Shown: one piece after another, positions 1-11,517 of the stretch | Layout of the letters: each line of letters begins with the position of its first letter | Numbering within the stretch: position 1 is the stretch's first letter | DNA from: CBDUXP01 sp965371225 [NCBI: uncultured bacterium] | GTDB lineage: Bacteria > Abyssobacteria > SURF-5 > CBDUXP01 | NCBI GenBank assembly: GCA_965371225.1 | Contig: CBDUXP010000092.1 | Coordinates: forward strand, 1-11,517 | Direction of reading: 5' to 3' | Length of the DNA stretch: 11,517 nt | Translations under genes and position numbers: made by a program | Notes under the pieces: model-generated | What the model was told of the DNA's origin: nothing | Database searches by the model: none | The model's input: only the letters and a program-made list of their open reading frames with translations

Positions 1-2
1 AC

Positions 3-1121
3 AGCCCCATCATGGGGAACAACATGATGGGTGGCGCGTTCTCCTGGGCGTTCATTTTGCAGGCGGTGCTGATCGGGATGTTGTTCGTCGGCGCGAACTA
101 CTACCTGTGGGTGGGCATGCAGCGCATCGAGGGCGCGCAGCGGTATCGGCGCTACATCCCCATCAACACGTTCATCCTCATGCTCTGCTTCGCCGTCTGG
201 CTGACGCCGCACAACCTGCCACTGTCCGGCGCGGAGAAAAGCCTGCTGGGCGGTGCGCAGTACCACCCGGTGCTGAAGTACTTCGGCCTGATGCCCGCGA
301 AGAACGCGGCGGTGAACTTCATCATCCTGTCCACGTTCTTCTCGTTCCTCATGTACCGCCGCGCGAACAAGGGCGCCGTGCCGCCGTTCGCCACACACGG
401 GTGGCTCGGCAAGGGCGTGGTGGCAGGAGCCGGCGCCGCCAGCCTCCTGCTGTTGTTCTGGTACGTGGGGGTCATACGGGGGCTCGATCCGGCGGAGCTG
501 TCCGTGCCACCGGAGAACGTGTGGGTGTTCCACTGGGCGGTGCGCGCACTGTGGGTCCAGATGGGGGCGGCCGTGGTGGTGGTGTTGTTGACGTTTGCGA
601 ACCGCGGCGTCGACGCCCAGTTCCTGTACTTTGGCGTGTCGGTGTTCGTGGCCGCCGGGTTTTTCGGGGTGTGGGGCTTCGTGGCGATGGTGGAGGCGAG
701 CGCGTTCCTGCGCAACATCGCGGTCTGCCAAGTGCTCGTGGTGCTCACCTGCCTGATCCTGAATACCACCATTGACGTGTTCCTGTTCCGCGGCGCGCCG
801 GTCGTTGGGCAGATTCGCTGGGGCCACATCGCCGCGCGGGCGCAGTACGCGCTCATCCTCACGTGCATTTCCGTGGTGCTGCTGATGGGGCTCATGGGGT
901 ACGTGCGCTCCGGGCTGCGCGAGGATTGGCACATCTTCGGCGTGCTGCGCGACACGTCGTCCGGCGCGCACACGCCGTCGCTGGCGTACATGACGCGCGT
1001 CGTGTCGCTCATTACCGCGGTGTTCTTCGGGCTCGTGGCGTTCGTGTTCTGGCTCGCGCACCTCGGCGACCAGCCAGAGGAGCCCGAGGCGCCCGCCTCG
1101 GCGGAGGGCACCCCGGCATGA
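3..1121 (+). CDS. Polytopic membrane protein, bd-like quinol oxidase subunit I-related, 5'-truncated by window edge
   Basis: The reading frame is open to the left edge (codons for S-P-I precede the first ATG at nt 12) and no ribosome-binding site lies before that ATG, so the true start is probably outside the window. From the ATG, 369 residues are visible with about nine hydrophobic segments (roughly 11-33, 51-66, 98-115, 133-155, 172-197, 203-229, 235-256, 274-298, 328-350) and a Glu/Pro-rich tail. Histidines in or near membrane segments that could bind haem include H67 (TPHN), H174 (VFHW) and H272 (WGHI). The TPHN and GAQYHPVLKYFG stretches resemble my recollection of the C-terminal half of divergent cytochrome bd-like oxidases of chemolithotrophs. 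The classical GRQPW motif of CydA is not in the visible part, so the family call is moderate. The stop overlaps the next start as ATGA, and the following genes are cytochromes, which supports a respiratory role in the cytoplasmic membrane. Confidence 0.6.
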   Translation, partial: SPIMGNNMMGGAFSWAFILQAVLIGMLFVGANYYLWVGMQRIEGAQRYRRYIPINTFILMLCFAVWLTPHNLPLSGAEKSLLGGAQYHPVLKYFGLMPAKNAAVNFIILSTFFSFLMYRRANKGAVPPFATHGWLGKGVVAGAGAASLLLLFWYVGVIRGLDPAELSVPPENVWVFHWAVRALWVQMGAAVVVVLLTFANRGVDAQFLYFGVSVFVAAGFFGVWGFVAMVEASAFLRNIAVCQVLVVLTCLILNTTIDVFLFRGAPVVGQIRWGHIAARAQYALILTCISVVLLMGLMGYVRSGLREDWHIFGVLRDTSSGAHTPSLAYMTRVVSLITAVFFGLVAFVFWLAHLGDQPEEPEAPASAEGTPA

Positions 1122-2053
1122 TCGGGCAGGCCGTCGGCCTCGGCGCCGTCTTCATCGCCCTCTGCGCGGCGGTGCTCTGGCCGGCCCGGCGCTTCGGGCC
1201 GCTCGGGCTGTTCGTTGCGACACTGGTGCTGGGGACGGTGTTCTTTACGGTCGCGCTGCCCGGGTACGTGCTGCCCGGTGGGACGGTGGTTCCGGGCATC
1301 GCGATGGCTGCGGCCAACTCCGTGCGTCCGCTGCCGCTGCCCGCCCTGGCGTACTGGGTCTATCTCCTGCTCATCGTCATCGGCGGACTGGTGGCGGTGT
1401 CGAGCGACGACGAGTGGTGGCGCGATTTCCGCCGGCCGATCGTGCGCGGCCTGTGCGGCGACGTGCCGCGCGCGGCGGCGCCGTTGCGCGTGCTCGTCCT
1501 GTACGCGTGCATTCCACTAGCGGTGGGGTGGGGCACGGTGCGCGGCGCGGGGGCCACGGCGGGCGTGCCCATCGAGTCGCGCCAAGCGCATCCGTCCATC
1601 TCGTACGACCCCGACCTCGTCAGCCCTGTGCGTCATCCCCGCGCGGACCGTCTGGCGGCGTTCGCGGCGGCAGAAGGGCTGGCGGACGCTCCGGTCGGCG
1701 ACGTGCCGGCGGCGTATCGCGAGGCGATACTGCGCGAGGGCCGGCACCTGTACGGGAAGAACTGCTCGCACTGCCACGGCGGGAAGGCCGATGGCACCGG
1801 ACACCTGGCGCGGGCGCTGCGCCTGCGGCCGGCGGACTTCACTGACTCGGGCACGATTGCCACGCTCGTCGAAGCCTACGCCTTCCGCCGCGTGATGGAC
1901 GGCGGCATCGGTCTGCCGGGGGCGGGCACCCCGTGGGATTCCGCCATGCCCAGGTGGAAGGGCGAACTGACCGAGGAAGAGGTTTTCAAGATCCTCCTTG
2001 CCGAATACGACATCGCCGGCGTCTCGCCGCGCGTGCCGGAGAAGCTGGAATGA
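1118..2053 (+). CDS. Membrane-anchored monohaem cytochrome c
   Basis: This 311-residue protein starts at the ATG overlapping the previous stop (ATGA). The same frame is open further upstream, but that part lies inside gene 1 and does not look coding. The N-terminal half holds about four hydrophobic segments (near 4-21, 28-50, 75-95, 123-141). The C-terminal domain has one haem c site, CSHCH at 216-220, in a class I cytochrome c context (GRHLYGKNCSHCHGG, later RPADFTD). M277 in SAMPRW is the likely sixth ligand. Fused membrane and cytochrome c domains of this kind often accept or deliver electrons for an adjacent membrane oxidoreductase. The overlap on both sides suggests a complex with the protein before it and the multihaem protein after it. 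The membrane part is not recognised as a named family. The cytochrome domain is secure; the partner assignment is inference. Confidence 0.88.
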   Translation: MIGQAVGLGAVFIALCAAVLWPARRFGPLGLFVATLVLGTVFFTVALPGYVLPGGTVVPGIAMAAANSVRPLPLPALAYWVYLLLIVIGGLVAVSSDDEWWRDFRRPIVRGLCGDVPRAAAPLRVLVLYACIPLAVGWGTVRGAGATAGVPIESRQAHPSISYDPDLVSPVRHPRADRLAAFAAAEGLADAPVGDVPAAYREAILREGRHLYGKNCSHCHGGKADGTGHLARALRLRPADFTDSGTIATLVEAYAFRRVMDGGIGLPGAGTPWDSAMPRWKGELTEEEVFKILLAEYDIAGVSPRVPEKLE

Positions 2054-3807
2054 GGGCGGCAGTCGGCCGGCGCTTTCGGTTGGTCCTGGCCGCGTGCGTG
2101 GTCGTGGCTGCGGTTCCCGCTGCCGCTCAGGAGAAGTACGATCCCGCCGCGCTCGGGCCGCGCAAGGCGCAGTTCCCGGTGGACGCGGCGGCCGTGGAGC
2201 GCGGGGAGGTGGTGTACGCGCGCTACTGCGCGTTCTGTCACGGAGACGCGGGCGCAGGCGACGGCGGCGCGGCGCTGTACCTGGCCCCCCGCCCGCGCGA
2301 CTTCACGCTCGGGCTGTTCAAGTTTCGCTCGACGCAGACGGGCGAGCTGCCGACGGACGAGGACCTGTTCCGTACGATTTCGCGCGGGGTGCCGGGTACG
2401 GCGATGCCCGCGTGGGGCGAGCCGCCCTCCGCACTGGCCGAGGCGGACCGGTGGGCCGTGACGTACTACCTGAAGACCATCGCGACGGAGGACTTCGAGG
2501 ACGAGGACTTCAATCCGTACGACTACCTGCTCGAGATGCCCGAGCCACCGCAGGTGACGCCGGAGCTGATTGCCACGGGACAGGCACTGTACCTGGACGA
2601 GAGCAAGGGCGGTTGCGTGAAATGCCACGGCCCGCTGGGGCGCGGCGACGGGCGCGAAGCCGGCACGCACCGGGACGATTGGGGCGATCCGATCCTGCCG
2701 GCGGACTTCACGAAGGCGTGGCAACTGCGCAATGGCGGCAGCATGCGCGAGTTGTTCCGGTCCATGTCCACAGGGTTCAACGGCACGCCCATGGCCGGGT
2801 TCGCCGAGACCTTCGATGAAGACGAACGGTGGGCGCTCGTGAGCTACGTACGCTCGCTCATGGACGCGCCGCCCCCGGAGGGAGCGGTGGTGCTTGTGGC
2901 GCACAAGGCGCTTGTGGACATCCCGCGCGACCCCGGCGATCCGTTCTGGGAGGCCCAGCCGGCGCTGGAGGTGCCGCTGGCCGGCCAGGCGGTGACGCCG
3001 CCCCGCCTCGCGTCCGCGTCGGTGGACCTGGTGCGCGTGCGCGCCGCGTACACGGACGAGGAGGTGGCGTTCCACTTCACGTGGAATGACCGCTTCAAGA
3101 ACGTACTGGCCCCGCGGGAGGAGGGCGGTGAGCCCGCCATCGCGCCGGACCTCTGGACGCCCGAGCTGGCCGACCCCGACACGTTCATCACGATGGCGCA
3201 ACTGTGGGCCCGCCGCAGCGACAGCTTCCGCGACCGGTTGCAAGTGCAGTTCCCCGTCAGGCCCTCCGACGGGCCGGACAAGCCGTTTTTCTTCCTCGGC
3301 GGCGCCCGCGCACCCGTGCACCTGTGGACGTGGAACGCGGACTGGAACGAGCGCCCGGCCGCGCACGGCGGCCGCGTCGCCGTCGAGCGTGTGGGCAAGG
3401 GATACAAGAAGGAGCCCGCGGCGCAGCCGGAGGACAGCCAGGCGCTCGACGGCCGCGGGGAGCACGAGGCGGGCCGGTGGCGCCTCGTACTCGTGCGGCC
3501 GCGCCTGACGGACGACGCGAGGCGGGACACGCAGTTTGAACCGGGGCGGCCGATTCCGTTCGCCCTCCAGGCCTGGGACGGCGGCAACGGCGAAGAAGGC
3601 CTCTTATGCGCCTTCTCGTCATGGCATTACGTGGTGCTCGAGGCGGAGGCGGATCCGCGGGTGTACGCGTGGGCCGGCGCCGGCACGCTGCTGACGCTTG
3701 CGGGCATGGCCGGCCTGGTCCGCGCCGCGCGCCGGGCCAACCTGGATGAACTTGAGGGAAGCGACCCGACACCGGCGGCCGATGGGCAGCCGGCGGAGAG
3801 TGGCTGA
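2050..3807 (+). CDS. Dihaem cytochrome c with C-terminal EB_dh-type haem-binding domain and membrane anchor
   Basis: This 585-residue protein begins at the ATG overlapping the previous stop (ATGA). That start gives a good signal peptide (basic MRAAVGRRFR, hydrophobic core, AAA-Q cleavage near residue 26), so the longer upstream frame is not used. Two cytochrome c domains follow: CAFCH at 60-64 with likely ligand M119 (TAMPAW), and CVKCH at 189-193 with likely ligand M248 (TPMAGF). Residues about 285-530 resemble the ethylbenzene-dehydrogenase/DMSO-reductase gamma family (EB_dh), which binds a b-type haem. Cues are AYTDEEVAFHFTWND, FPVRPSDGPDKPFFFLGG, PVHLWTWNADW and FALQAWDGG. A hydrophobic segment at 538-558 with a basic cytoplasmic-side flank (RAARRAN) anchors the C-terminus. 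The family includes gamma subunits of periplasmic molybdoenzymes such as NxrC-like proteins, but no alpha or beta subunit is in the window. It probably relays electrons on the periplasmic side. Confidence 0.88.
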   Translation: MRAAVGRRFRLVLAACVVVAAVPAAAQEKYDPAALGPRKAQFPVDAAAVERGEVVYARYCAFCHGDAGAGDGGAALYLAPRPRDFTLGLFKFRSTQTGELPTDEDLFRTISRGVPGTAMPAWGEPPSALAEADRWAVTYYLKTIATEDFEDEDFNPYDYLLEMPEPPQVTPELIATGQALYLDESKGGCVKCHGPLGRGDGREAGTHRDDWGDPILPADFTKAWQLRNGGSMRELFRSMSTGFNGTPMAGFAETFDEDERWALVSYVRSLMDAPPPEGAVVLVAHKALVDIPRDPGDPFWEAQPALEVPLAGQAVTPPRLASASVDLVRVRAAYTDEEVAFHFTWNDRFKNVLAPREEGGEPAIAPDLWTPELADPDTFITMAQLWARRSDSFRDRLQVQFPVRPSDGPDKPFFFLGGARAPVHLWTWNADWNERPAAHGGRVAVERVGKGYKKEPAAQPEDSQALDGRGEHEAGRWRLVLVRPRLTDDARRDTQFEPGRPIPFALQAWDGGNGEEGLLCAFSSWHYVVLEAEADPRVYAWAGAGTLLTLAGMAGLVRAARRANLDELEGSDPTPAADGQPAESG

Positions 3808-3812
3808 GTACG

Positions 3813-3830
3813 GTGGCGCTCGAACGCCAC
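3813..3830 (+). promoter_or_regulatory. Inter-cistronic hairpin
   Basis: A perfect 6-bp inverted repeat (GTGGCG / CGCCAC) with a 6-nt loop (CTCGAA) fills the middle of the 36-nt gap between the EB_dh cytochrome and the cupredoxin-like gene. There is no T-run, so it is not a standard intrinsic terminator. It sits directly upstream of the GAGGA ribosome-binding sequence and could affect translation or mRNA processing. A chance repeat in GC-rich DNA is possible. Confidence 0.35.
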
Positions 3831-3834
3831 GAGT

Positions 3835-3839
3835 GAGGA
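3835..3839 (+). promoter_or_regulatory. Ribosome-binding site of the cupredoxin-like gene
   Basis: GAGGA lies four bases before the ATG at 3844. It supports that start, which also gives a clean signal peptide. Confidence 0.6.
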
Positions 3840-3843
3840 CACA

Positions 3844-4632
3844 ATGCAGACACTACGAATCGCATGTGCGGCGCTAGTGGCGGTCGCTCTATGCGCCGCG
3901 CCGGTCGGTGCGGCGGAGAAATACGAAGAGATCGCCGTAGAGAACGGCGGCACGGTCAGCGGCCGGGTCGTGTGGAACGGTGCGGTACCGGCCCTGGAGG
4001 ACTACGCAATCAACAAGAACGTCGAAGTCTGCGCCCACGGCGGGGTCACGATGCGGCCGAGCGACCGGCTGCTCGTCTCGGCCGACGGTGGCGTGGCGAA
4101 CGCCGTCGTGTACCTGAAGGACGTGACGAGTGGCAAGCCGATGCCGAAGGTGGCCGCGACGCTGAACCAGCGGGGCTGCCGGTACGAGCCGCACGTCCAG
4201 GTGGTGCCGCGCAAGACCAAGCTCACCATGTCGAGCGAGGACGACGTGCTGCACAACATCCACATGTTCGGCGCCGCGACGTACAACATCCCGTTCTCCG
4301 GCCCGGAGTCGATCACCAAGAGTATGCGCAAGGCGGGCGTCGTGCGGATTCAGTGCGACGCAGGCCACGGCTGGATGAACGGGTACGTCCACGTGGCGAA
4401 CCACCCGTACTACGCGGTGACGGACGAGACTGGCGCCTTCACGCTGACCGACGTACCGCCCGGCTCCTACACGATCCTTATGTGGCACGAACACTGGGAG
4501 ATTACGCAGAAGCGCGAGAAGGATGGCGTGGTCACCGGCTACGAGTTCGCCGACCCCGTCGAGCTCAGTCAGCAGGTGGAGGTCGCCCCCGGCCGTGACA
4601 CCACCGTAACCTTCGAGCTGTCCGGCTCCTGA
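3844..4632 (+). CDS. Secreted cupredoxin-like protein with carboxypeptidase regulatory-like (beta-sandwich) segments
   Basis: This 262-residue protein has a signal peptide (MQTLRIACAALVAVALCAAP, cleavage near VGAA-EK at 24). The mature part opens with a GTVSGRVVWNGAVP strand typical of carboxypeptidase regulatory-like beta-sandwich domains. The same fold signature recurs at 189-216 (AVTDETGAFTLTDVPPGSY, then WHEH). Between them are potential type 1 copper ligands: H137 and H140 in LHNIHMF, then C171, H175 and M178 in CDAGHGWM. The Cys-x3-His-x2-Met spacing is close to that of cupredoxins. C63 and C112 could form a disulfide. Members of this group often sit beside cytochrome c genes and are annotated as plastocyanin-like or methylamine-utilisation-like proteins. 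It is probably a periplasmic electron carrier or copper-binding partner of the flanking cytochromes. Copper binding is inferred from motif spacing, and H137 and H140 compete for the N-terminal ligand position. Confidence 0.82.
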   Translation: MQTLRIACAALVAVALCAAPVGAAEKYEEIAVENGGTVSGRVVWNGAVPALEDYAINKNVEVCAHGGVTMRPSDRLLVSADGGVANAVVYLKDVTSGKPMPKVAATLNQRGCRYEPHVQVVPRKTKLTMSSEDDVLHNIHMFGAATYNIPFSGPESITKSMRKAGVVRIQCDAGHGWMNGYVHVANHPYYAVTDETGAFTLTDVPPGSYTILMWHEHWEITQKREKDGVVTGYEFADPVELSQQVEVAPGRDTTVTFELSGS

Positions 4633-4644
4633 TCGCCGGCGATC
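4631..4644. repeat. 14-bp perfect palindrome
   Basis: GATCGCCGGCGATC equals its own reverse complement. It begins inside the stop codon of the cupredoxin-like gene and lies in the 34-nt gap before the next cytochrome gene. It has no loop, so it is more like a protein-binding site than an RNA hairpin. Chance cannot be excluded at this GC content. Confidence 0.4.
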
Positions 4645-4666
4645 CGGAAGAACACCCGACACGATT

Positions 4667-5602
4667 ATGAACGGCGCGATTGGCAAAGTCGTCCTCTTCG
4701 GCCTCGCGAACCTCGCCTTGTTCGTCTACATGGGGGAGGCGATCACGCGGCTGACCGGCACCGGCGCCGCGGCCGGCGGGGCGGCGCTCAGCGGTGAGGT
4801 GTCGCCGGAAGCTGGGGAAGCGCTCTTCCTTGGCCGCGGCAAGTGTTACACGTGTCATGCGATCGGCGGCGAGGGTTCGGCCGTGCGCTGCCCGAATCTC
4901 GGCATGCAGGGCGAGAAGTTCACTGAACCCGTCGCCATCCGCGCGGCGGTGCGCGGCGCGGAGCGCGGCCTCTCGCGCGTCCAATACCTGTTCGAGTCAC
5001 TCTACGACCCGAACGCGTCCATCGTGCCCGGGTATCCGAAAGACCTGATGAAACCGATCCATCGGCCGCCGATTGCACTGTCCGACGACCAGATCGCGTC
5101 CGTGATCCTCTACCTCCTGCAAAAAGGCGGCGTTGACCTGGAGGCGGAGACGATGGCGGAGGTGCAGGCGGCGCAGCAGCGCTTCGCTGCCACGCGCGGT
5201 GCGGTTCCCGCTGCCGCCGGCGTGGCGTTGCCGGCGGGGGATGCCGACGACGGCCTCGAGGCTTTCGCCGAGCTGGGCTGTCGCCAGTGCCACCGCGTGG
5301 ACGGCGTCGAGTTCGACCTCGAGGTGGCGGCGGCGAGCGGTGTCGGGCCCGACCTGACGAGTATCGGCGCCATTCAGACCCGCGAGTACCTGGCTGAGTC
5401 GGTGCTCGCGCCGAGCAAACTCATCGTGGGCGACCCGGCCGGCGCGGAACCGGGCAGCCCGAAGAGCTACCAGCACGCCGCGGGCCTCAGCAAGATGCCC
5501 GAGTACCAGGCCCTCATGACGCTCGGCCAGTTGCAGGACATCGTCGAGTTCCTGACGCAACTCGAAGACGCCGAAACCAACGCGGAGCACTTCGGCGGAT
5601 AA
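4667..5602 (+). CDS. Membrane-anchored dihaem cytochrome c
   Basis: This 311-residue protein has a single N-terminal hydrophobic segment (residues 5-23) that should act as an uncleaved signal anchor, placing the rest in the periplasm. Domain 1 has CYTCH at 60-64 and a candidate Met ligand at M128, after VPGYPKDL. Domain 2 has CRQCH at 205-209 and M277 (LSKMPEY) as likely ligand. The two domains are joined by an Ala-rich linker around 165-195. The paired layout, haem site then a Pro-Gly-x-x-K/S-x-M loop, resembles tandem class I cytochromes of cytochrome oxidase or bc-type modules. No strong ribosome-binding site precedes the ATG (GGAAG lies 16 nt away), so translation may be coupled to the gene upstream, 34 nt before. 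It probably shuttles electrons among the membrane complex, the EB_dh cytochrome and the cupredoxin-like protein. Confidence 0.87.
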   Translation: MNGAIGKVVLFGLANLALFVYMGEAITRLTGTGAAAGGAALSGEVSPEAGEALFLGRGKCYTCHAIGGEGSAVRCPNLGMQGEKFTEPVAIRAAVRGAERGLSRVQYLFESLYDPNASIVPGYPKDLMKPIHRPPIALSDDQIASVILYLLQKGGVDLEAETMAEVQAAQQRFAATRGAVPAAAGVALPAGDADDGLEAFAELGCRQCHRVDGVEFDLEVAAASGVGPDLTSIGAIQTREYLAESVLAPSKLIVGDPAGAEPGSPKSYQHAAGLSKMPEYQALMTLGQLQDIVEFLTQLEDAETNAEHFGG

Positions 5603-5611
5603 GGAAAGGGG
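5603..5611 (+). promoter_or_regulatory. Ribosome-binding site of the Mrp gene
   Basis: GGAAAGGGG lies directly after the preceding stop and 10 bases before the ATG at 5622. It supports that start over the internal ATG at residue 36. Confidence 0.5.
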
Positions 5612-5621
5612 CGGCAGACCT

Positions 5622-6506
5622 ATGAAGCACTACCACGACATCCCCGGTGACGGCGGCTCCGGCATCGCCGAACAGGTCGGGGTCCTGACGCAGCGACTCA
5701 CCGACCGCCTGGCAGCGATCGAACACATGCTGGTCATCGGCAGCGGCAAGGGCGGCGTGGGTAAGAGCACGATCACGGCCAACCTGGCTGCGGCGCTCGC
5801 GTCGCGCGGACTCGCGGTCGGTGTGCTCGATGCGGATTTCAACGGCCCGAGTCAAGCGCGCCTGTTCGGCGTGGCCGCCGAGCCGATCACCCGCAGCGCG
5901 GACGGGGTCGTGCCCCCACAGGGTGCCGGCGGCGTTTCCGTGCTCTCCATGGCGGCGTTCATCGAAGACGGCGCCGCGCTTCGCTGGCGGGGGGGCGCCG
6001 AGGGGGCGCATCTCTGGCGTGGCGGGATGGAAGGCACTGCGTTGCGCGAATTCCTCGCCGACGCGGCGTGGGGCGCACTCGATTACCTCGTGGTGGACCT
6101 GCCGCCCGGCACGGACCGGCTTGCCACCGTGGCGGGGTTCGCGCCGGAGGGGGCCGCGACTCTGCTCGTGACGCTGCCGTCCGAACTCAGCCAGACAGTC
6201 GTCGCCCGGTCCGTCGACGTCGCACGCGAACGTGGACCTCGGCTGCTGGGGCTCGTGGAAAACATGGCCGGTTACCGCTGCCCGCGCTGCGGCGAGGTCG
6301 GGGAGCTGTTCAGCGGCGATGCGCGTGACATGGCGGAGGCGCTCCTGACGCCCGTGCTAGCACGTGTCCCGTTCGATCCGGCCGTCGTGTGCGCGTGCGA
6401 CCGCGGCGTGCCCATTGTGTTGGCCGAGCCCGACGGGGAAGCGGCCCGGAGCTTTCACCACTTGGCGGACGCCGTGCATGCCGCCATCGAGGAGGGAACC
6501 CAATGA
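5622..6506 (+). CDS. mrp: Mrp/NBP35 (ApbC) family P-loop ATPase, iron-sulfur cluster carrier
   Basis: This 294-residue protein has a deviant Walker A/P-loop, GKGGVGKS at 42-49, the partner motif LDADFNGPS at 69-77, and DLPPGT at 159-164. It also has the family CxxC pair C220-PR-C223, which in Mrp/ApbC/Nbp35 proteins bridges a 4Fe-4S cluster between two subunits. The N-terminal YHDIPGDGGSG stretch is a usual leader in bacterial members, supporting the upstream ATG. Known members bind and transfer Fe-S clusters to apoproteins in the cytoplasm. The stop overlaps the next start (ATGA), so it is tightly linked to the zinc-ribbon/PCP_red gene and, further on, to a radical SAM protein that needs 4Fe-4S clusters. 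It is therefore a plausible dedicated cluster donor. Extra cysteines occur near the C-terminus (C257, C259). A ParA/MinD-type role is less likely because of the CxxC. Confidence 0.88.
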   Translation: MKHYHDIPGDGGSGIAEQVGVLTQRLTDRLAAIEHMLVIGSGKGGVGKSTITANLAAALASRGLAVGVLDADFNGPSQARLFGVAAEPITRSADGVVPPQGAGGVSVLSMAAFIEDGAALRWRGGAEGAHLWRGGMEGTALREFLADAAWGALDYLVVDLPPGTDRLATVAGFAPEGAATLLVTLPSELSQTVVARSVDVARERGPRLLGLVENMAGYRCPRCGEVGELFSGDARDMAEALLTPVLARVPFDPAVVCACDRGVPIVLAEPDGEAARSFHHLADAVHAAIEEGTQ

Positions 6507-6952
6507 AATTCTTGTGCGTCCAATGTGACGAACCCATGAAGCTCCAACGCAATAACGGCGTCGAGCGTGGATCGCTGACCGTGCTCTTCGGCTGCCCCGG
6601 CTGCGGCTGGGAAGTGGCCATGCTAACGAATCCCGCGGAGACCACCATGGTGTCCAGCCTGGGGATTCGCGTGGGCGGCCGCGCGGGCGAGCCGCTGGTG
6701 CCCCTCGAAAGCACCAGCGCAAATCTCGCAGGCGGCTGCCCGTTCACCGGGGCGGCGGCCGAGGACGCGGCGCCGGCCGAGGGGCAGCGGCCACCGACAT
6801 GGACGCCGGAGGCGGAGGCACGCATGCAGCGGGTGCCCGACTTCGTGCGCCCGATGGCGACACGCCGCATCGAACAGTACGCGCGGGAGTGCGGCCACAC
6901 CACCATCACCGAGGATGTCGTGCTTCAGGCTCGCGCCGACGTCGGGATGTAA
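6503..6952 (+). CDS. Small zinc-ribbon protein with C-terminal PCP_red domain
   Basis: This 149-residue cytoplasmic protein starts at the ATG that overlaps the mrp stop; no signal peptide is seen. The N-terminus has four cysteines in a zinc-ribbon or rubredoxin-like arrangement, C5-VQ-C8 and C31-PG-C34, which could bind zinc, iron or an Fe-S cluster. A fifth cysteine is in GGCPF (C79). A Glu/Ala/Pro linker (85-98) leads to a ~48-residue helical domain at 100-147, starting WTPEAEARMQRVPDFVRPMA and ending near TITEDVVLQARADVG. I recognise this as PCP_red, the domain at the C-terminus of the BchB/ChlB subunit of dark protochlorophyllide reductase. No chlorophyll gene is present in the window. 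The same domain recurs in the next two genes, so the three proteins probably act together. Function is not established; tetrapyrrole or cofactor handling is inference. Confidence 0.85.
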   Translation: MKFLCVQCDEPMKLQRNNGVERGSLTVLFGCPGCGWEVAMLTNPAETTMVSSLGIRVGGRAGEPLVPLESTSANLAGGCPFTGAAAEDAAPAEGQRPPTWTPEAEARMQRVPDFVRPMATRRIEQYARECGHTTITEDVVLQARADVGM

Positions 6953-6961
6953 CGGTTTCCT

Positions 6962-6970
6962 GGAAAGGGG
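6962..6970 (+). promoter_or_regulatory. Ribosome-binding site of the USP/PCP_red gene
   Basis: GGAAAGGGG lies six bases before the ATG at 6977. It is the same nine bases used upstream of mrp, and it fixes the start in the 24-nt gap after the zinc-ribbon gene. Confidence 0.65.
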
Positions 6971-6976
6971 TCCATC

Positions 6977-9151
6977 ATGTACCAAGACATCTACATCGCC
7001 CTGGATAATTCGGAACTCTCGACGCGCGGTCTCGATCTCGGCATCAGGTTCGCGCACACATTCGGCGGCAAGCTGACCGGCAGCCACGTGTACGCCGCGG
7101 CGCTGCACGACCAACGCTTCCGCCAGATGGAGGGAGGGCTGCCCGAGCAGTTCAAGAAAGAGAAGGAACTCATCCGGCAGCGGAAGGTGCACGACTCGCT
7201 CATCACGCGCGGGCTGGAACTGATCACCGATTCGTACCTCGATGTGTTCCGCAGCCGCTGTGAGAAGGCGGACGTGCCGTACGACACGCGCTCGCTGGAG
7301 GGGAAGAACCACGTGCGCCTCGTCGAGGACATTGCGGAGCGCAAGCCCGACCTGGCGATCGTCGGCGCGCTTGGGCTCGGCGCCGTGCCCGATAGCCTGA
7401 TCGGCGGGGTGTGTGAGCGAGTGCTGCGGCACACGAGCGTCGACACCTGGGTGGTGCGTGGGCCGCTCGATCCGCACGGTGGCGAGTGCGAGCCGCGTAT
7501 CGCCGTCGCCATCGACGGGAGCCCGCGCGCTTATGGCGGGCTGGTGGCCGCGCTGGAACTCGGCAAATCGCTCGGTCTGGACGTGGAAGCCATCGCGGCA
7601 TTCGATCCGTACTTCCACACCGTGGCGTTCCGCTCCATCGCCACCGTGCTCAGCGAAGAGGCAGGGAAGATCTTCCGCTTTAAGGAGCAGGAGAAGCTTC
7701 ACGAGGAGATCATAGACTCGGGACTGGCGCGCATCTACCAGGCGCACCTCGACGTGGCGGCGCGCGTCGCCGAAGAGATGGGCGCATCGATCCGCGTGAA
7801 ACTGCTCGCGGGCAAGGCGTTCGCTGAAATCCTGCGGTACGTCCGCGAAGAGCGGCCGTGGGCGCTCGTGCTCGGCCGCTCCGGCATTCACCAGGATCCC
7901 GAAGGCGTCGGCGCCGAGATCGGCGGAACCTCCGAAAACCTGGTGCGCGCCGTGCCGTGCCACGTGTTGATGGCCGCGCGGACGTTCACGCCGCCCATGG
8001 ACGAGTTGGCGGAAGAGACCATGACGTGGACCACCGAAGCTGAAGCGCGTATGGAACACGTGCCTTCGTTCGTACGCAATATGGTGCACAAGGCCGTGGT
8101 GCGCTATGCGGCGGACATGGGCCACACGGTCGTCACGTCGGACTTGCTGGACCAGGCCATGGGCGACCTGATGCCCGCAGGCCACGGCAAGCCGGCCGGG
8201 GCGCCCCATGCGCCACCCGCCGCGGCCACGGACGCGCAGGGCAACGGTGCGCCGAAGCGCTGGACCGAAAAGGCGAAGGCGCGTCTGGGGCAGGTGCCCA
8301 AGGGGATGATGCGGACGCGCATGCGGGAGCGCGTGATCGAGATGGGGCAGGCGCGCGGGGCCACGTCGGTCGACCTTACGTTGGTGGAAGAAGCCATCGC
8401 CGCCGGGCGCGAAGAAATGCGGCAGGCGATGGAAGCCAAACCGGAACACCCGATTCCCGTGCCCACCGCGGCCCCTGCCGTCGTAGCGCCCACCGAGTCG
8501 TCCGGTGCGGTGACATTGCCCGAGGCGTTCATCCAGTGGCAGTTGGACGTGCGTCGCGGCGTGTTCGACCGGATCCGCAAGCGGGACCCGATCGCGTTTG
8601 TGGCCGCGCATCTGCCGATGTTGAGCACGTTGAACGCCGAGGGTGCGTTCCCCATCCACGCCAGCACGAAGGGCGTCGGCTTCTTCCCGCTCGTGGCGCA
8701 TCGCGACGCCTACCTGACAGCCATCGCGGATTGTCTTGAGCGCGTCAAGGGGTGCCCGGCGGACGAAACGGCTGAGCAGCGCGTCGCCGTTGCGCGTGAC
8801 TTCTACACGCAACGCGAGCACATCGACTGGAGCGCGTTCGGGCTCCTGGAAATCTTCAAGGGGCAGACGTGGCGTAACCTGGCCGCGGACCCGCGCGTGA
8901 CGCTGCTGTTCACCGGCACGGGGCCGACGTACACGAGCTACCAAGTGAACTGTACCGCCGAGATCGTCGGGCCGGAGGATTCGCGGTTCCAATTCCTGCA
9001 CGGCATGCGGCAGCTCTTCGAATACGAGCGTTTCCACCTGCACCAGCCCAGCTACACGGCTGCGTACATCCTGCACGTGCGCGAAGTGTTCGATAAAACG
9101 CCGGTGATGGGGCGCGCCGGGAAGAAAGTGGCGCACGGGGCCCCGGCATGA
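6977..9151 (+). CDS. Tandem universal stress protein fused to two PCP_red domains and an uncharacterised C-terminal domain
   Basis: This 724-residue cytoplasmic protein appears to have five parts. Residues 2-161 and 173-333 are two universal stress protein (USP) domains: MYQDIYIALDNSELSTRGL start, GALGLGAVPDS loop and TWVV end; then IAVAIDGSPRAYGGL start, LGRSG loop and CHVLM end. The nucleotide-binding loops are near, but not exact matches to, the usual G-2x-G-9x-G-S/T form. A PCP_red copy follows at 350-395 (WTTEAEARMEHVPSFVRNMV). After a Pro/Ala linker comes a more divergent copy at 428-476 (RWTEKAKARLGQVPKGMMR). Residues about 513-714 form an unassigned domain. The stretch GQTWRNLAADPRVTLLFTG and the following SYQVNCTAEIVG weakly recall FMN-binding split-barrel proteins. 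USP pairs commonly sense ATP or stress. The stop overlaps the radical SAM start (ATGA). Function unknown; a regulatory or cofactor-handling scaffold is inferred. Confidence 0.88.
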   Translation: MYQDIYIALDNSELSTRGLDLGIRFAHTFGGKLTGSHVYAAALHDQRFRQMEGGLPEQFKKEKELIRQRKVHDSLITRGLELITDSYLDVFRSRCEKADVPYDTRSLEGKNHVRLVEDIAERKPDLAIVGALGLGAVPDSLIGGVCERVLRHTSVDTWVVRGPLDPHGGECEPRIAVAIDGSPRAYGGLVAALELGKSLGLDVEAIAAFDPYFHTVAFRSIATVLSEEAGKIFRFKEQEKLHEEIIDSGLARIYQAHLDVAARVAEEMGASIRVKLLAGKAFAEILRYVREERPWALVLGRSGIHQDPEGVGAEIGGTSENLVRAVPCHVLMAARTFTPPMDELAEETMTWTTEAEARMEHVPSFVRNMVHKAVVRYAADMGHTVVTSDLLDQAMGDLMPAGHGKPAGAPHAPPAAATDAQGNGAPKRWTEKAKARLGQVPKGMMRTRMRERVIEMGQARGATSVDLTLVEEAIAAGREEMRQAMEAKPEHPIPVPTAAPAVVAPTESSGAVTLPEAFIQWQLDVRRGVFDRIRKRDPIAFVAAHLPMLSTLNAEGAFPIHASTKGVGFFPLVAHRDAYLTAIADCLERVKGCPADETAEQRVAVARDFYTQREHIDWSAFGLLEIFKGQTWRNLAADPRVTLLFTGTGPTYTSYQVNCTAEIVGPEDSRFQFLHGMRQLFEYERFHLHQPSYTAAYILHVREVFDKTPVMGRAGKKVAHGAPA

Positions 9152-11070
9152 CCGATTCCGCCGCACCGGCAAGGGCCCCCGCCGGCTCGGTGCTCCACGC
9201 GCTGTCGTGGAACCTGACAGCGCGCTGCAACCTCCGCTGTGGCCATTGCTACCTGGATGCGTCGGTGCGGGAGGCGCGCGATGCGCATGAGCTGGACCGC
9301 GCGGAGTGTCTCGCGCTGGTCGATGAGCTGGCGGCGGTCAATCCGCAGCTCTTCCTGATCCTGACGGGTGGGGAGCCGTTGTGCCACCCCTGGCTGGAGG
9401 ACATTGTCGCGCGGGCGACCGGCGCAGGCATGACCGTCGTGCTCGGCACGAACGGGACGCTGCTCACCGCGGACCGGGCGCGGGCGCTCAAGGCGCAGGG
9501 TTTGTCGGGCGTCGGCATCAGCATCGATGCGCCGGAATCCGAGGCGCACGACCGCCTGCGCGGTGTGGCCGGTGCGTGGGCGGGCGCCATGGAGGGGTTG
9601 CGCATCGCGCGCGACTGCGGCCTCGGTATCGTCGTGCAGACGTCTATCTTCTCGTGGAACCGGACAGGCCTCGATCGACTGGCGCGGTTGGCGGCGGATG
9701 TAGGGGCCGCGGCGCACAACGTGTACTTTCTCGTGTGCACCGGCCGCGGGCAGGGCATGACGGACTTGGACGCGGAGACGTATGAAGCGACGCTCGAGGA
9801 CATTCGCGCACTGCAATCGGAGTGGGCCGGGCGGCTGCACATCGGCGTGAAGTGTGCGCCCCACTACCAACGGCTGCTCGCGACACACGAACCTGCGTCG
9901 CCACATCTGCGCGGCTATGCCGGCGGCTGCCCGGCCGGAACGCATTACGCACGCGTGGATCCAATGGGCCAGGCGACGCCGTGCCCCTACCTGCCGCCCA
10001 CGGGCGAGAGCGTTCGGGAGCAACCATTCGCTGAGATCTGGACGAGTGCAGCGCCCTTCACCACGATCCGCGAACGATCGGCGCTGGGCGGAAAATGCGG
10101 CGGGTGCGACATGGTGCACGTGTGCGGCGGATGCCGGGCTCGCGCCTTTGCGCTGGAAGGCGATGTGATGGCGGAGGACCCGTCGTGCGCCTACGAGCCG
10201 CCGGAGCGAGACGCGGCGGCGCCGGCCGCGTTCGCGGCGGCGCCGGCCGCGTTCGCGGCTGCGCAGACGTTCGGGGCACAGGTGGAGCTCACCATGGCGT
10301 GGACGCCGGAAGCACGCGACCGCTTGGACCGTATTCCTTCGTTCCTCCGGGGCATGATCACGCAACGCCTGGAAGCGGCGGCACGGGAAGCCGGTGCCGA
10401 CGCCGTGACCGCCGAGATGATGCGGGAGTTGCGCGAGCGGGGGATGGGCGGGGGAATGCCTGCGGGACGTATTCCTGCAGGCGCGCCGCCCTTCCCGATT
10501 CCCGAAGCGCCGGGGCCATCCGCTGATTCGGATAGGGAAAGCGTGGGGTGCCGGAAAGACGAAGAGATCCAGTGGGACGCGGACGCGCTCGCGCGGTTGG
10601 CGAACGCGCCGGACTTCGTGCGGCCGGGGATTCGCAAGCTCATGGGGCTGCGGGCGCGGCAGCGGGGCCACACGCGGATCACAAGCGAGTTCCTCTCGGA
10701 AATCCGCAACGAATCCATGCTGCGCGTCGCCACGGTCGTGCGCCGTTTCGGTTTCGACGCCATGGAGGACGACGCGTTCGGCGAAGCGAAACAGCGGATG
10801 CACAAACGGCCGCGCAAGCTGCAGGTCATCGACGCGATCCGAGAATTCCTGGGTGCACGGACCGAGAAGAACGAGGACATCATCGCCAAGTTCGAACAGT
10901 ACATGGCCGTGGCTCCGACGCGCGGGGTCGCCTGGACGCCGGATGCCCTCGAGTGGTTGGAGGAGCACGACGCGGAGGGGGTGCGCGAAGACATCGAGGC
11001 GCGAGTACGGGCGTTGCACTTACCTGTGGTTAGTCTGGAACTCATCCAGGAGTTGTATGTGCCAAAATGA
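9148..11070 (+). CDS. Radical SAM protein (NirJ/AhbD/SPASM-like) with three C-terminal PCP_red-like domains
   Basis: This 640-residue protein starts at the ATG overlapping the previous stop. The radical SAM domain (about 16-235) has the CNLRCGHC cluster motif (C27, C31, C34), GGEP at 74-77 and a GISIDAPE strand. A cysteine-rich region follows: C236 (VKCAPHY), C261 (GGCPAG), C279 (TPCPYL), C317, C320, C326, C329 and C347. This matches SPASM-type auxiliary 4Fe-4S binding and the general layout of NirJ, AhbC and AhbD, which modify haem precursors. A low-complexity Ala/Pro/Phe linker (about 356-372) leads to PCP_red copies at 384-430 (AWTPEARDRLDRIPSFLRGM) and 475-521 (IQWDADALARLANAPDFVRP), then an unassigned helical stretch (522-590) and a degenerate copy at 594-637. 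Peptide-modifying SPASM enzymes are an alternative, but no precursor-peptide gene is seen. The tetrapyrrole link rests on NirJ-like features plus PCP_red and is inference. Confidence 0.9.
   Translation: MTDSAAPARAPAGSVLHALSWNLTARCNLRCGHCYLDASVREARDAHELDRAECLALVDELAAVNPQLFLILTGGEPLCHPWLEDIVARATGAGMTVVLGTNGTLLTADRARALKAQGLSGVGISIDAPESEAHDRLRGVAGAWAGAMEGLRIARDCGLGIVVQTSIFSWNRTGLDRLARLAADVGAAAHNVYFLVCTGRGQGMTDLDAETYEATLEDIRALQSEWAGRLHIGVKCAPHYQRLLATHEPASPHLRGYAGGCPAGTHYARVDPMGQATPCPYLPPTGESVREQPFAEIWTSAAPFTTIRERSALGGKCGGCDMVHVCGGCRARAFALEGDVMAEDPSCAYEPPERDAAAPAAFAAAPAAFAAAQTFGAQVELTMAWTPEARDRLDRIPSFLRGMITQRLEAAAREAGADAVTAEMMRELRERGMGGGMPAGRIPAGAPPFPIPEAPGPSADSDRESVGCRKDEEIQWDADALARLANAPDFVRPGIRKLMGLRARQRGHTRITSEFLSEIRNESMLRVATVVRRFGFDAMEDDAFGEAKQRMHKRPRKLQVIDAIREFLGARTEKNEDIIAKFEQYMAVAPTRGVAWTPDALEWLEEHDAEGVREDIEARVRALHLPVVSLELIQELYVPK
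10212..10259. repeat. 21-bp in-frame tandem repeat, 2.3 copies
   Basis: The bases repeat with a period of 21 without mismatch across 48 nt. They encode the AAPAAFA-type linker between the Fe-S region and the first PCP_red domain of the radical SAM protein. It is probably a slippage-prone flexible linker. Confidence 0.85.
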
Positions 11071-11276
11071 GAACACTTCTTCACGTTGTGGTCCTTCGGG
11101 AGGGGGGCGGAAGTCCACCAATCGTTGCCCCAGCGGTGGATGGTGGTTCCGGTGTGGCACACAGGCCCGAATGCAATCAGGCGGGCGCCGCATTCGTCTA
11201 TATATGTGAAGGGTTAGCACGCAATCCCACCGGCTGCGGTCCGCGACTGCGCCCGGAGGTAGGCTAGGTAAAGAAG
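11071..11276. other. Intergenic region after the operon
   Basis: This 206-nt gap is the only sizeable non-coding stretch. It separates the nine-gene operon from a new secreted-protein gene, so it should hold the operon's transcription end and the next promoter. It contains a 7-bp inverted repeat followed by an AT island (11197-11205). It also has a weaker 6-bp inverted repeat (TCCACC 11114-11119, GGTGGA 11135-11140), and a GC-rich leader with GCGGTCCGCGACTG at about 11235-11248. No convincing -35 box and no strong T-run terminator were found. Confidence 0.6.
11168..11205 (+). promoter_or_regulatory. Inverted repeat next to AT-rich island, candidate operator/promoter or weak terminator
   Basis: CGAATGC (11168-11174) and GCATTCG (11190-11196) are perfect 7-bp arms around a 15-nt loop. 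TCTATATAT follows immediately, a striking AT run in this GC-rich DNA. TATATA at 11199-11204 could serve as a -10 box for the downstream gene, with the repeat as an operator. Alternatively the repeat plus AT run is a weak terminator of the operon. No good -35 match sits 16-18 nt upstream. Confidence 0.35.
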
Positions 11277-11517
11277 ATGAACCTACACACGCGAAAGAAC
11301 GCGCTCATCGTGTCGGCGATTATTCTCGCCGTGGGGCTGTGCTGGACCGCAGCGCCGGCGGCGTGGGCCGGGGACGATCCGTCGATCCAGGGTGAGTTGC
11401 GCACGAACATTCAAGCGGCGATGCAAGACTTCGTGAAAGCGCAGACGGTGAACGGCGTCTTTTACCAGTACGATCCTGTCGACGGGCAGATGCTGCGCCT
11501 GCACTTCAAGAACCTGC
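11277..11517 (+). CDS. Secreted protein of unknown function, 3'-truncated by window edge
   Basis: The ATG at 11277 opens a frame that stays open to the window end (80 codons visible). An in-frame TAG at 11265-11267 rules out a start further upstream. The first ~31 residues are a clear signal peptide: basic MNLHTRK, a hydrophobic core and an AWA-GDD cleavage site. The visible mature part (DDPSIQGELRTNIQAAMQDF, then VNGVFYQYDPVDGQMLRLHF) is an amphipathic helix followed by beta-like sequence. No cysteines, haem motif or known domain are visible. GGAGG at 11255-11259 is too far (17 nt) to be an ideal ribosome-binding site; AAGAAG just before the ATG may serve. I do not recognise the family. Its separate upstream region suggests its own transcription, though its periplasmic location fits the neighbouring cytochromes. 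Confidence 0.75.
   Translation, partial: MNLHTRKNALIVSAIILAVGLCWTAAPAAWAGDDPSIQGELRTNIQAAMQDFVKAQTVNGVFYQYDPVDGQMLRLHFKNL

Follow-up and report, generated by a model that had tools for sequence, protein, structure and literature searches.

PCP_red domains on three unrelated scaffolds accompany a bd-like respiratory gene set: a candidate heme-handling assembly module

We analysed a stretch of 11,517 nucleotides (the window; contig CBDUXP010000092.1, positions 1 to 11,517) from the uncultured bacterium CBDUXP01 sp965371225 of the Abyssobacteria, in which three adjacent genes encode a zinc-ribbon protein, a protein with two universal stress protein (USP) domains and a radical SAM protein, each carrying the small domain PCP_red. 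This trio is linked to a respiratory gene set that encodes a cytochrome bd-like membrane protein, an EB_dh protein and c-type cytochromes, and lies directly 3' of that set and of a gene for an Mrp-type ATPase. We propose, at a probability of roughly 0.45, that the trio together with Mrp (and, in Gemmatimonadota, a ferredoxin) forms a heme-handling assembly module for the bd-like/EB_dh/c-type cytochrome complex. The proposal builds on the observed domain identities, gene packing and co-occurrence, on the absence of the dark protochlorophyllide reductase (DPOR), and on ChdC being present as a route to heme.

Results

An earlier note, made from the letters of the window alone, had placed six PCP_red copies in the three genes, at coordinates that proved accurate, with deviations of a few to about a dozen bases. 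Against PF08369 (PCP_red; Pfam cut-off 32.5 bits) the whole proteins scored 64.9 bits (zinc-ribbon), 76.1 bits (USP, two stretches) and 88.4 bits (radical SAM, two stretches). Scored segment by segment, copies 1 to 6 reached 68.3, 55.4, 33.5, 58.5, 47.0 and 14.7 bits; five of the six (33.5–68.3 bits) pass the cut-off, the second USP copy only narrowly, while the sixth does no better than shuffles. A second profile, built from 33 radical SAM PCP_red copies of other genomes with the window excluded, gave 59.7, 53.8, 24.9, 70.8, 38.8 and 4.2 bits for the same segments. Among 200 shuffles of each, the best score was 5.5 bits for the second USP copy and 4.6 bits for copy 6, which at 4.2 bits falls within its own shuffles. 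One module is indeed carried by three unrelated scaffolds, as the note had it. It does not end the tandem USP protein, which runs on for approximately 245 residues beyond its second copy.

The five copies belong to the same Pfam family as the C-terminus of the DPOR subunit BchB/ChlB and the solo PCP_red protein Asr4154, and the W, P and FVR core residues are common to window and DPOR-type PCP_red. A sequence search of the PDB with the zinc-ribbon copy returned 2l09 (Asr4154, 62 residues) and 2kru (BchB C-terminus), as well as the DPOR chains 2ynm, 2xdq and 3aek. A single-sequence AlphaFold model of copies 5 and 6 (mean pLDDT 61.3) shows both as strand-helix-helix-strand-helix and has as its two best PDB matches the PCP_red structures 2l09 and 2kru, at E values of only 0.31 and 0.36, copy 5 possibly being the part matched. 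Copy 6 may, on this model, be a decayed PCP_red copy, an unproven assignment.

A scan of genome contigs found a single relative, L001, in a metagenome assembly titled Gemmatimonas phototrophica. We therefore describe the cluster from a survey of 298 genomes of the phylum of L001, taken as Gemmatimonadota and different from the window's own lineage. With presence thresholds of E < 1e-15 for the zinc-ribbon gene and E 1e-20 for the bd-like gene, 75 genomes had both, 5 the zinc-ribbon gene only, 4 the bd-like gene only and 214 neither (Fisher p 6e-59, uncorrected for kinship); some of the nine single-gene genomes are possibly broken assemblies. PCP_red itself was present in 116 of the 298 genomes at E 0.001, and above the cut-off in 113. 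Both the zinc-ribbon and the bd-like gene were lacking in 34 of the 116. The 30 best PCP_red matches (one per genome) all had the core IPFFVR and were taken as BchB; 28 of these 30 BchB-type genomes belonged to the 34, and G101 and G193 are the two that did not. Among viral contigs, none of 55 pattern matches was a relative, and the seven plasmid records found with the USP query were universal stress proteins or unannotated.

The arrangement of the genes was read from 40 regions around PCP_red matches which, with L001 added and two overlapping regions removed, make 39 loci in 38 genomes. These 40 regions were picked by their PCP_red matches, and the independent test of the association is the gene presence in whole genomes given above. 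All matched genes of a locus share one strand, and across the 39 loci their order is nearly invariant: mrp, zinc-ribbon, ABC-2 exporter (19 loci), USP, radical SAM, bd-like, diheme cytochrome c, cytochrome c, EB_dh, CarboxypepD_reg. The USP gene was found at all 39 loci, the zinc-ribbon gene and mrp at 38 each, the radical SAM and bd-like genes at 36 each and EB_dh at 32, counts that exclude a zinc-ribbon row at L071 (a piece of the radical SAM protein) and a radical SAM row at L055 (a piece of the USP protein). Missing genes are mostly cut off by contig or region ends. The earlier note had named rarity of the three genes together elsewhere as grounds for giving up its reading; the same gene set recurs at these 39 loci, and 75 of the 298 genomes have both the zinc-ribbon and the bd-like gene. 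The note had missed the bd-like/EB_dh/c-type cytochrome set upstream of the trio.

A one-cluster ferredoxin (PF13370) adjoins mrp or the zinc-ribbon gene at 37 of the 39 loci, and cox2 lies at most 300 bases 3' of EB_dh at 26 of the 32 loci with EB_dh, the other six being cut there. In G017 the radical SAM gene adjoins the zinc-ribbon gene and mrp, and the USP gene is approximately 6 kb off. The window holds the core set in a different order, the cytochromes standing before mrp, with 31–47% identity to the best-scoring matches at the loci; neither a ferredoxin nor an exporter was seen in the window. The two ABC genes present at 19 loci were considered as a CcmAB heme exporter and rejected, since the CcmA model was matched at 105.4 bits against a cut-off of 131.6 and the permease matches ABC2_membrane. 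A small membrane gene occurs at 19 loci in variable position. In G253 a small membrane protein (L054:5853-6167) with a sub-threshold Pfam match only is encoded between chdC and the ferredoxin gene; G104, G117, G119 and G282 encode relatives close to the cluster, and G205 encodes one farther off.

DPOR is mostly absent from cluster genomes; for the window, the earlier note had remarked that no chlorophyll gene is present. Of 74 cluster genomes, two (G101 and G193, each of which also has a BchB-type match) had a DPOR BchL above the cut-off, as did 6 of 6 bchB control genomes; the count of 74 excludes the zinc-ribbon genomes G017, G161, G227 and G266. In the window, the PCP_red end is the only part of the three proteins that BchB models match, Pfam shows no nitrogenase-like catalytic domain in any window protein, and Mrp scores 22.7 bits against the BchL model, whose cut-off is 345.

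The profile scores of the radical SAM protein point to enzymes of tetrapyrrole synthesis. Its highest-scoring NCBIfam models are AhbD (TIGR04545, 276.6 bits) and NirJ2 (274.5 bits), matched over nearly their whole length, each with a cut-off of 500 bits; the functions of AhbD and NirJ in the synthesis of heme and heme d1 are taken from passages of a review (PMC7242693). For the radical SAM proteins of L001 and L046 the highest score was that of NirJ2, followed by AhbD, again below the 500-bit cut-offs. The AhbD equivalog cut-off was passed in none of 18 genomes searched, AhbD-like rows included. Because the AhbD-like rows of G002, G004 and G008, genomes with AhbA/B-type decarboxylases, also miss 500 bits (440–454 bits, no PCP_red), this cut-off alone is not decisive. 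Eleven cysteines, those of CxxxCxxC included, are conserved in at least 97% of 38 aligned rows. In a tree of 21 rows, the window, PCP_red-fused and AhbD-like proteins group apart from five other radical SAM rows; the window branch is long and its placement unsure, and its nearest row by identity is the radical SAM protein of G161 (48% over 341 columns). A viperin (pVip) reading of the radical SAM core, suggested by 68.1 bits in a defence library, was set aside, the AhbD score being four times as high; in the same library Mrp matched PDC-M28B at 26.8 bits.

The cluster genomes tested also have a route to heme. ChdC was found in 21 of the 21 cluster genomes tested and an AhbA/B-type decarboxylase match in one (G243, 34.5 bits), and coproheme should therefore be available in cluster genomes. 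Eight genomes without PCP_red had ChdC in 1 of 8 and AhbA/B-type matches in 5 of 8; three bchB genomes had neither (0 of 3 for each). Over all 32 sampled genomes, ChdC (22) and AhbA/B-type matches (6) were largely mutually exclusive, G243 alone having both. Of 24 cluster genomes, 22 had ferrochelatase. The distance of chdC from the cluster is no more than approximately 25 kb in seven of 21 genomes (G014, G016, G023, G061, G104, G205 and G253), as compared with approximately 0.43 expected under a simple model without kinship. In G104 and G282, hemH, chdC and hemL stand on the cluster strand, upstream of the ferredoxin gene and mrp.

Of the two other trio members, the zinc-ribbon protein has C5, C8, C31 and C34 conserved across 40 aligned rows. 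The idea of a 'CP' heme motif in it was dropped: the CPFT before PCP_red of the window protein is not conserved in the zinc-ribbon proteins of Gemmatimonadota. The USP proteins of Gemmatimonadota (L036–L075) have CPxT, CPI[RKE] and CPV in 36, 34 and 36 of 40 rows, respectively; such short Cys-Pro motifs are no proof of heme binding. Six histidines are conserved in at least 95% of 41 USP rows, the window included. The C-terminal region of the window USP protein, which has a weak split-barrel match (Table 1), scored 23.2 bits against TIGR03618 (cut-off 79), gave no useful PDB match and was modelled at pLDDT 38; the L001 USP protein is without it. A USP fragment of G017 (L124:8126-9643) has three PCP_red-type matches, two of them above the cut-off, with two CxxC pairs in between.

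The window has a G+C content of 68% and ten open frames on the plus strand, the first and the last cut by the window edges (Table 1). Since intergenic gaps from the bd-like through the radical SAM gene are only -4 to 36 bases, these genes appear to form one operon; mrp and the zinc-ribbon gene overlap by 4 bases, 24 bases separate the zinc-ribbon and USP genes, the USP and radical SAM genes overlap by 4 bases, and 206 bases separate the radical SAM gene from the next gene start. The bd-like fragment has no Pfam match on its own and is named from its relatives: it is 37–49% identical to the second half of bd-like proteins at the cluster loci, one of which (L046:10610-12409) matches Cyt_bd_oxida_I at 67.9 bits over residues 49–306. 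The EB_dh protein reaches 87.8 bits against TIGR03477, under the cut-off, and Mrp 219.5 bits against MrpORP, likewise under that model's cut-off. Relatives of the CarboxypepD_reg-like protein occur at 27 of the 39 loci.

Table 1. Features of the window, with the matches on which their names rest
Feature	Position	Strand	Basis
Cytochrome bd-like membrane protein, C-terminal part (5' end outside the window)	3..1121	+	aligns with relatives
Cytochrome c, one CxxCH motif (CSHCH)	1118..2053	+	Cytochrome_CBB3, 30.6 bits
Two heme c motifs (CAFCH, CVKCH) and an EB_dh (DMSO reductase type II gamma-like) domain	2050..3807	+	Cytochrome_CBB3 and EB_dh, above cut-off
CarboxypepD_reg-like secreted protein	3844..4632	+	CarboxypepD_reg, 31.1 bits, just below cut-off (32.3)
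Diheme cytochrome c (CYTCH, CRQCH)	4667..5602	+	Cytochrom_C, 47 bits
Mrp/NUBPL-type P-loop ATPase (Fe-S carrier family)	5622..6506	+	PF10609, 223.8 bits
Zinc-ribbon protein (two CxxC) with one PCP_red at 6800-6934	6503..6952	+	PF08369, 64.9 bits
USP-USP-PCP_red-PCP_red protein; PCP_red at about 8027-8158 and 8261-8395	6977..9151	+	Usp, 88.5 bits (two stretches); PF08369 (two stretches)
C-terminal region of the USP protein, weak PNPOx/F420-type split-barrel match	8411..9148	+	PNPOx_N, 23 bits, below cut-off (28.1)
Radical SAM/SPASM protein; PCP_red at about 10300-10434 and 10573-10704	9148..11070	+	Radical_SAM, 82.8 bits; SPASM, 26.9 bits
Claimed sixth PCP_red copy, unconfirmed, possibly decayed	10927..11058	+	PF08369, 14.7 bits
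Start of a further protein, signal-like N-terminus, cut by the window edge	11277-11517	+	no Pfam match

Discussion

The earlier observation is partly confirmed and its interpretation partly supported. The note had suggested an undescribed tetrapyrrole or metal-cofactor maturation system. A link to tetrapyrroles is retained through the AhbD/NirJ2-like radical SAM protein, as its profile scores suggest, and through the heme-synthesis genes that some genomes carry close to the cluster; a free-standing pathway, on the other hand, is less likely than assembly of a respiratory complex, because relatives of the upstream bd-like/EB_dh/c-type cytochrome set accompany the trio.

In the sequence of events that we envisage, the AhbD/NirJ2-like protein would act on coproheme or on a side chain of heme, in either case an iron tetrapyrrole, and would receive electrons from the ferredoxin and Fe-S clusters from Mrp. 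The zinc-ribbon and USP proteins would hold the product via their PCP_red domains and hand it on, a step that the USP part might gate, and the product would be inserted where the bd-like or EB_dh subunits bind b-type heme. We infer here that PCP_red binds tetrapyrrole, and likewise which substrate is used, in what order the steps run and which complex is the target. A more specific version, in which PCP_red carries an iron tetrapyrrole from the AhbD-like enzyme to a bd-like/EB_dh complex containing a chemically modified heme, would make the module a dedicated cofactor system in 80 of 298 (approximately a quarter) of the Gemmatimonadota genomes and in the window's lineage; we regard this version as doubtful.

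Several observations weigh against an assembly module of this kind. The association of the zinc-ribbon and bd-like genes is uncorrected for kinship, and single genomes depart from it: G161 has the zinc-ribbon gene and a PCP_red-fused radical SAM gene on separate contigs and no bd-like match, G236 has the cluster with no radical SAM match at E 1e-25, and G240 has a second bd-like set without the trio beside it. This second set (L131:4194-12858) comprises a bd-like protein 52% identical to that of the window, two EB_dh matches and a cytochrome c. Furthermore, 14 of 21 genomes have chdC far from the cluster or on a different contig, there may be other reasons for respiratory and heme genes to be neighbours, and the window radical SAM protein stays below the AhbD cut-off, as do the AhbD-like rows of genomes with AhbA/B.

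The main rival is that PCP_red is a protein docking module, through which the three proteins join to serve the respiratory complex as a chaperone or stress-control unit, with no tetrapyrrole involved. Docking is in keeping with a small domain that recurs on three scaffolds and with the several further PCP_red copies of the G017 USP protein, and the conserved W, P and FVR core fits a purely structural role. Docking, however, leaves unexplained both the AhbD/NirJ2-like enzyme and the heme genes near the cluster, and we consider it a credible, if unlikely, explanation. The radical SAM protein could instead modify a peptide or protein of the complex, presented to it by the PCP_red proteins. PqqE-type radical SAM enzymes act on peptides, the window protein has a SPASM domain, and PqqE is its best PDB relative (E 3.1e-19); but the mycofactocin and PqqE models reach 117 and 112.4 bits, and those of AhbD and NirJ2 score more than twice as high. 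We regard modification of a peptide or protein as improbable.

A similarly low probability attaches to the idea that the cofactor matured for the complex is a metal or an Fe-S cluster instead of heme, with Mrp and ferredoxin handling clusters and the zinc ribbon and PCP_red as scaffold. The Mrp/NUBPL ATPase and the ferredoxin are standing members of the cluster, yet its conserved respiratory partners are heme proteins, and Pfam searches of the window showed no gene for a molybdoenzyme or other Fe-S enzyme. Least probable by far is a cryptic DPOR-like tetrapyrrole reductase, in which Mrp would replace BchL and the PCP_red proteins BchB. PCP_red is common to the trio and BchB, and Mrp does reach Fer4_NifH at 27.2 bits (cut-off 25); the absence of a nitrogenase-like catalytic domain from the window matches, the remoteness of Mrp from the BchL model and the rarity of BchL in cluster genomes all argue against such an enzyme.

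Unlike DPOR, the window proteins have no nitrogenase-like BchB body, PCP_red being fused instead to a zinc ribbon, USPs and a radical SAM protein, and BchL does not pass its cut-off in 72 of the 74 cluster genomes. AhbD and NirJ2, radical SAM enzymes of heme and heme d1 synthesis, supply the best-scoring models, although below their cut-offs; the window protein differs in carrying PCP_red, which the AhbD-like rows of G002, G004 and G008 lack, and, in contrast to the AhbD route, ChdC is present and AhbA/B mostly absent in the cluster genomes tested. On the BchB C-terminus, the open-licence literature yielded only the tetrapyrrole review PMC7242693, whose passages are silent on its role.

The respiratory partners resemble clusters of Nitrospira, Nitrospina and Kuenenia, for which passages of PMC3578206 and PMC6606698 describe a bd-like protein, an NxrC-like gamma subunit with heme c motifs, mono- and diheme cytochromes c and one putative zinc-finger protein. 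The window has a bd-like protein, an EB_dh gamma subunit with heme c motifs and mono- and diheme cytochromes c, a likeness by description. Among the differences, Pfam searches of the window showed no gene for nitrite oxidoreductase (NXR), and in Gemmatimonadota cox2 and cox1 follow. The passages of PMC3578206 and PMC6606698 on the bd-like/alternative NxrC complex call its role in nitrite oxidisers enigmatic or still to be determined and make no mention of radical SAM, USP or protochlorophyllide. Bd-like terminal oxidase complexes are also described for Manganitrophaceae in passages of PMC9040806. In the open-licence PMC literature, a scope that leaves aside InterPro's architecture lists, we found no description of PCP_red together with radical SAM or USP proteins, nor of a bd-like oxidase together with radical SAM; the only paper that came up for PF08369 is a trait study.

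If the assembly module is real, a conserved set of genes that includes one for an AhbD-like enzyme would suggest that bd-like complexes have a heme feature accessible to mass spectrometry and spectroscopy, and PCP_red, known from chlorophyll synthesis, would gain a role in bacteria that are mostly without DPOR.

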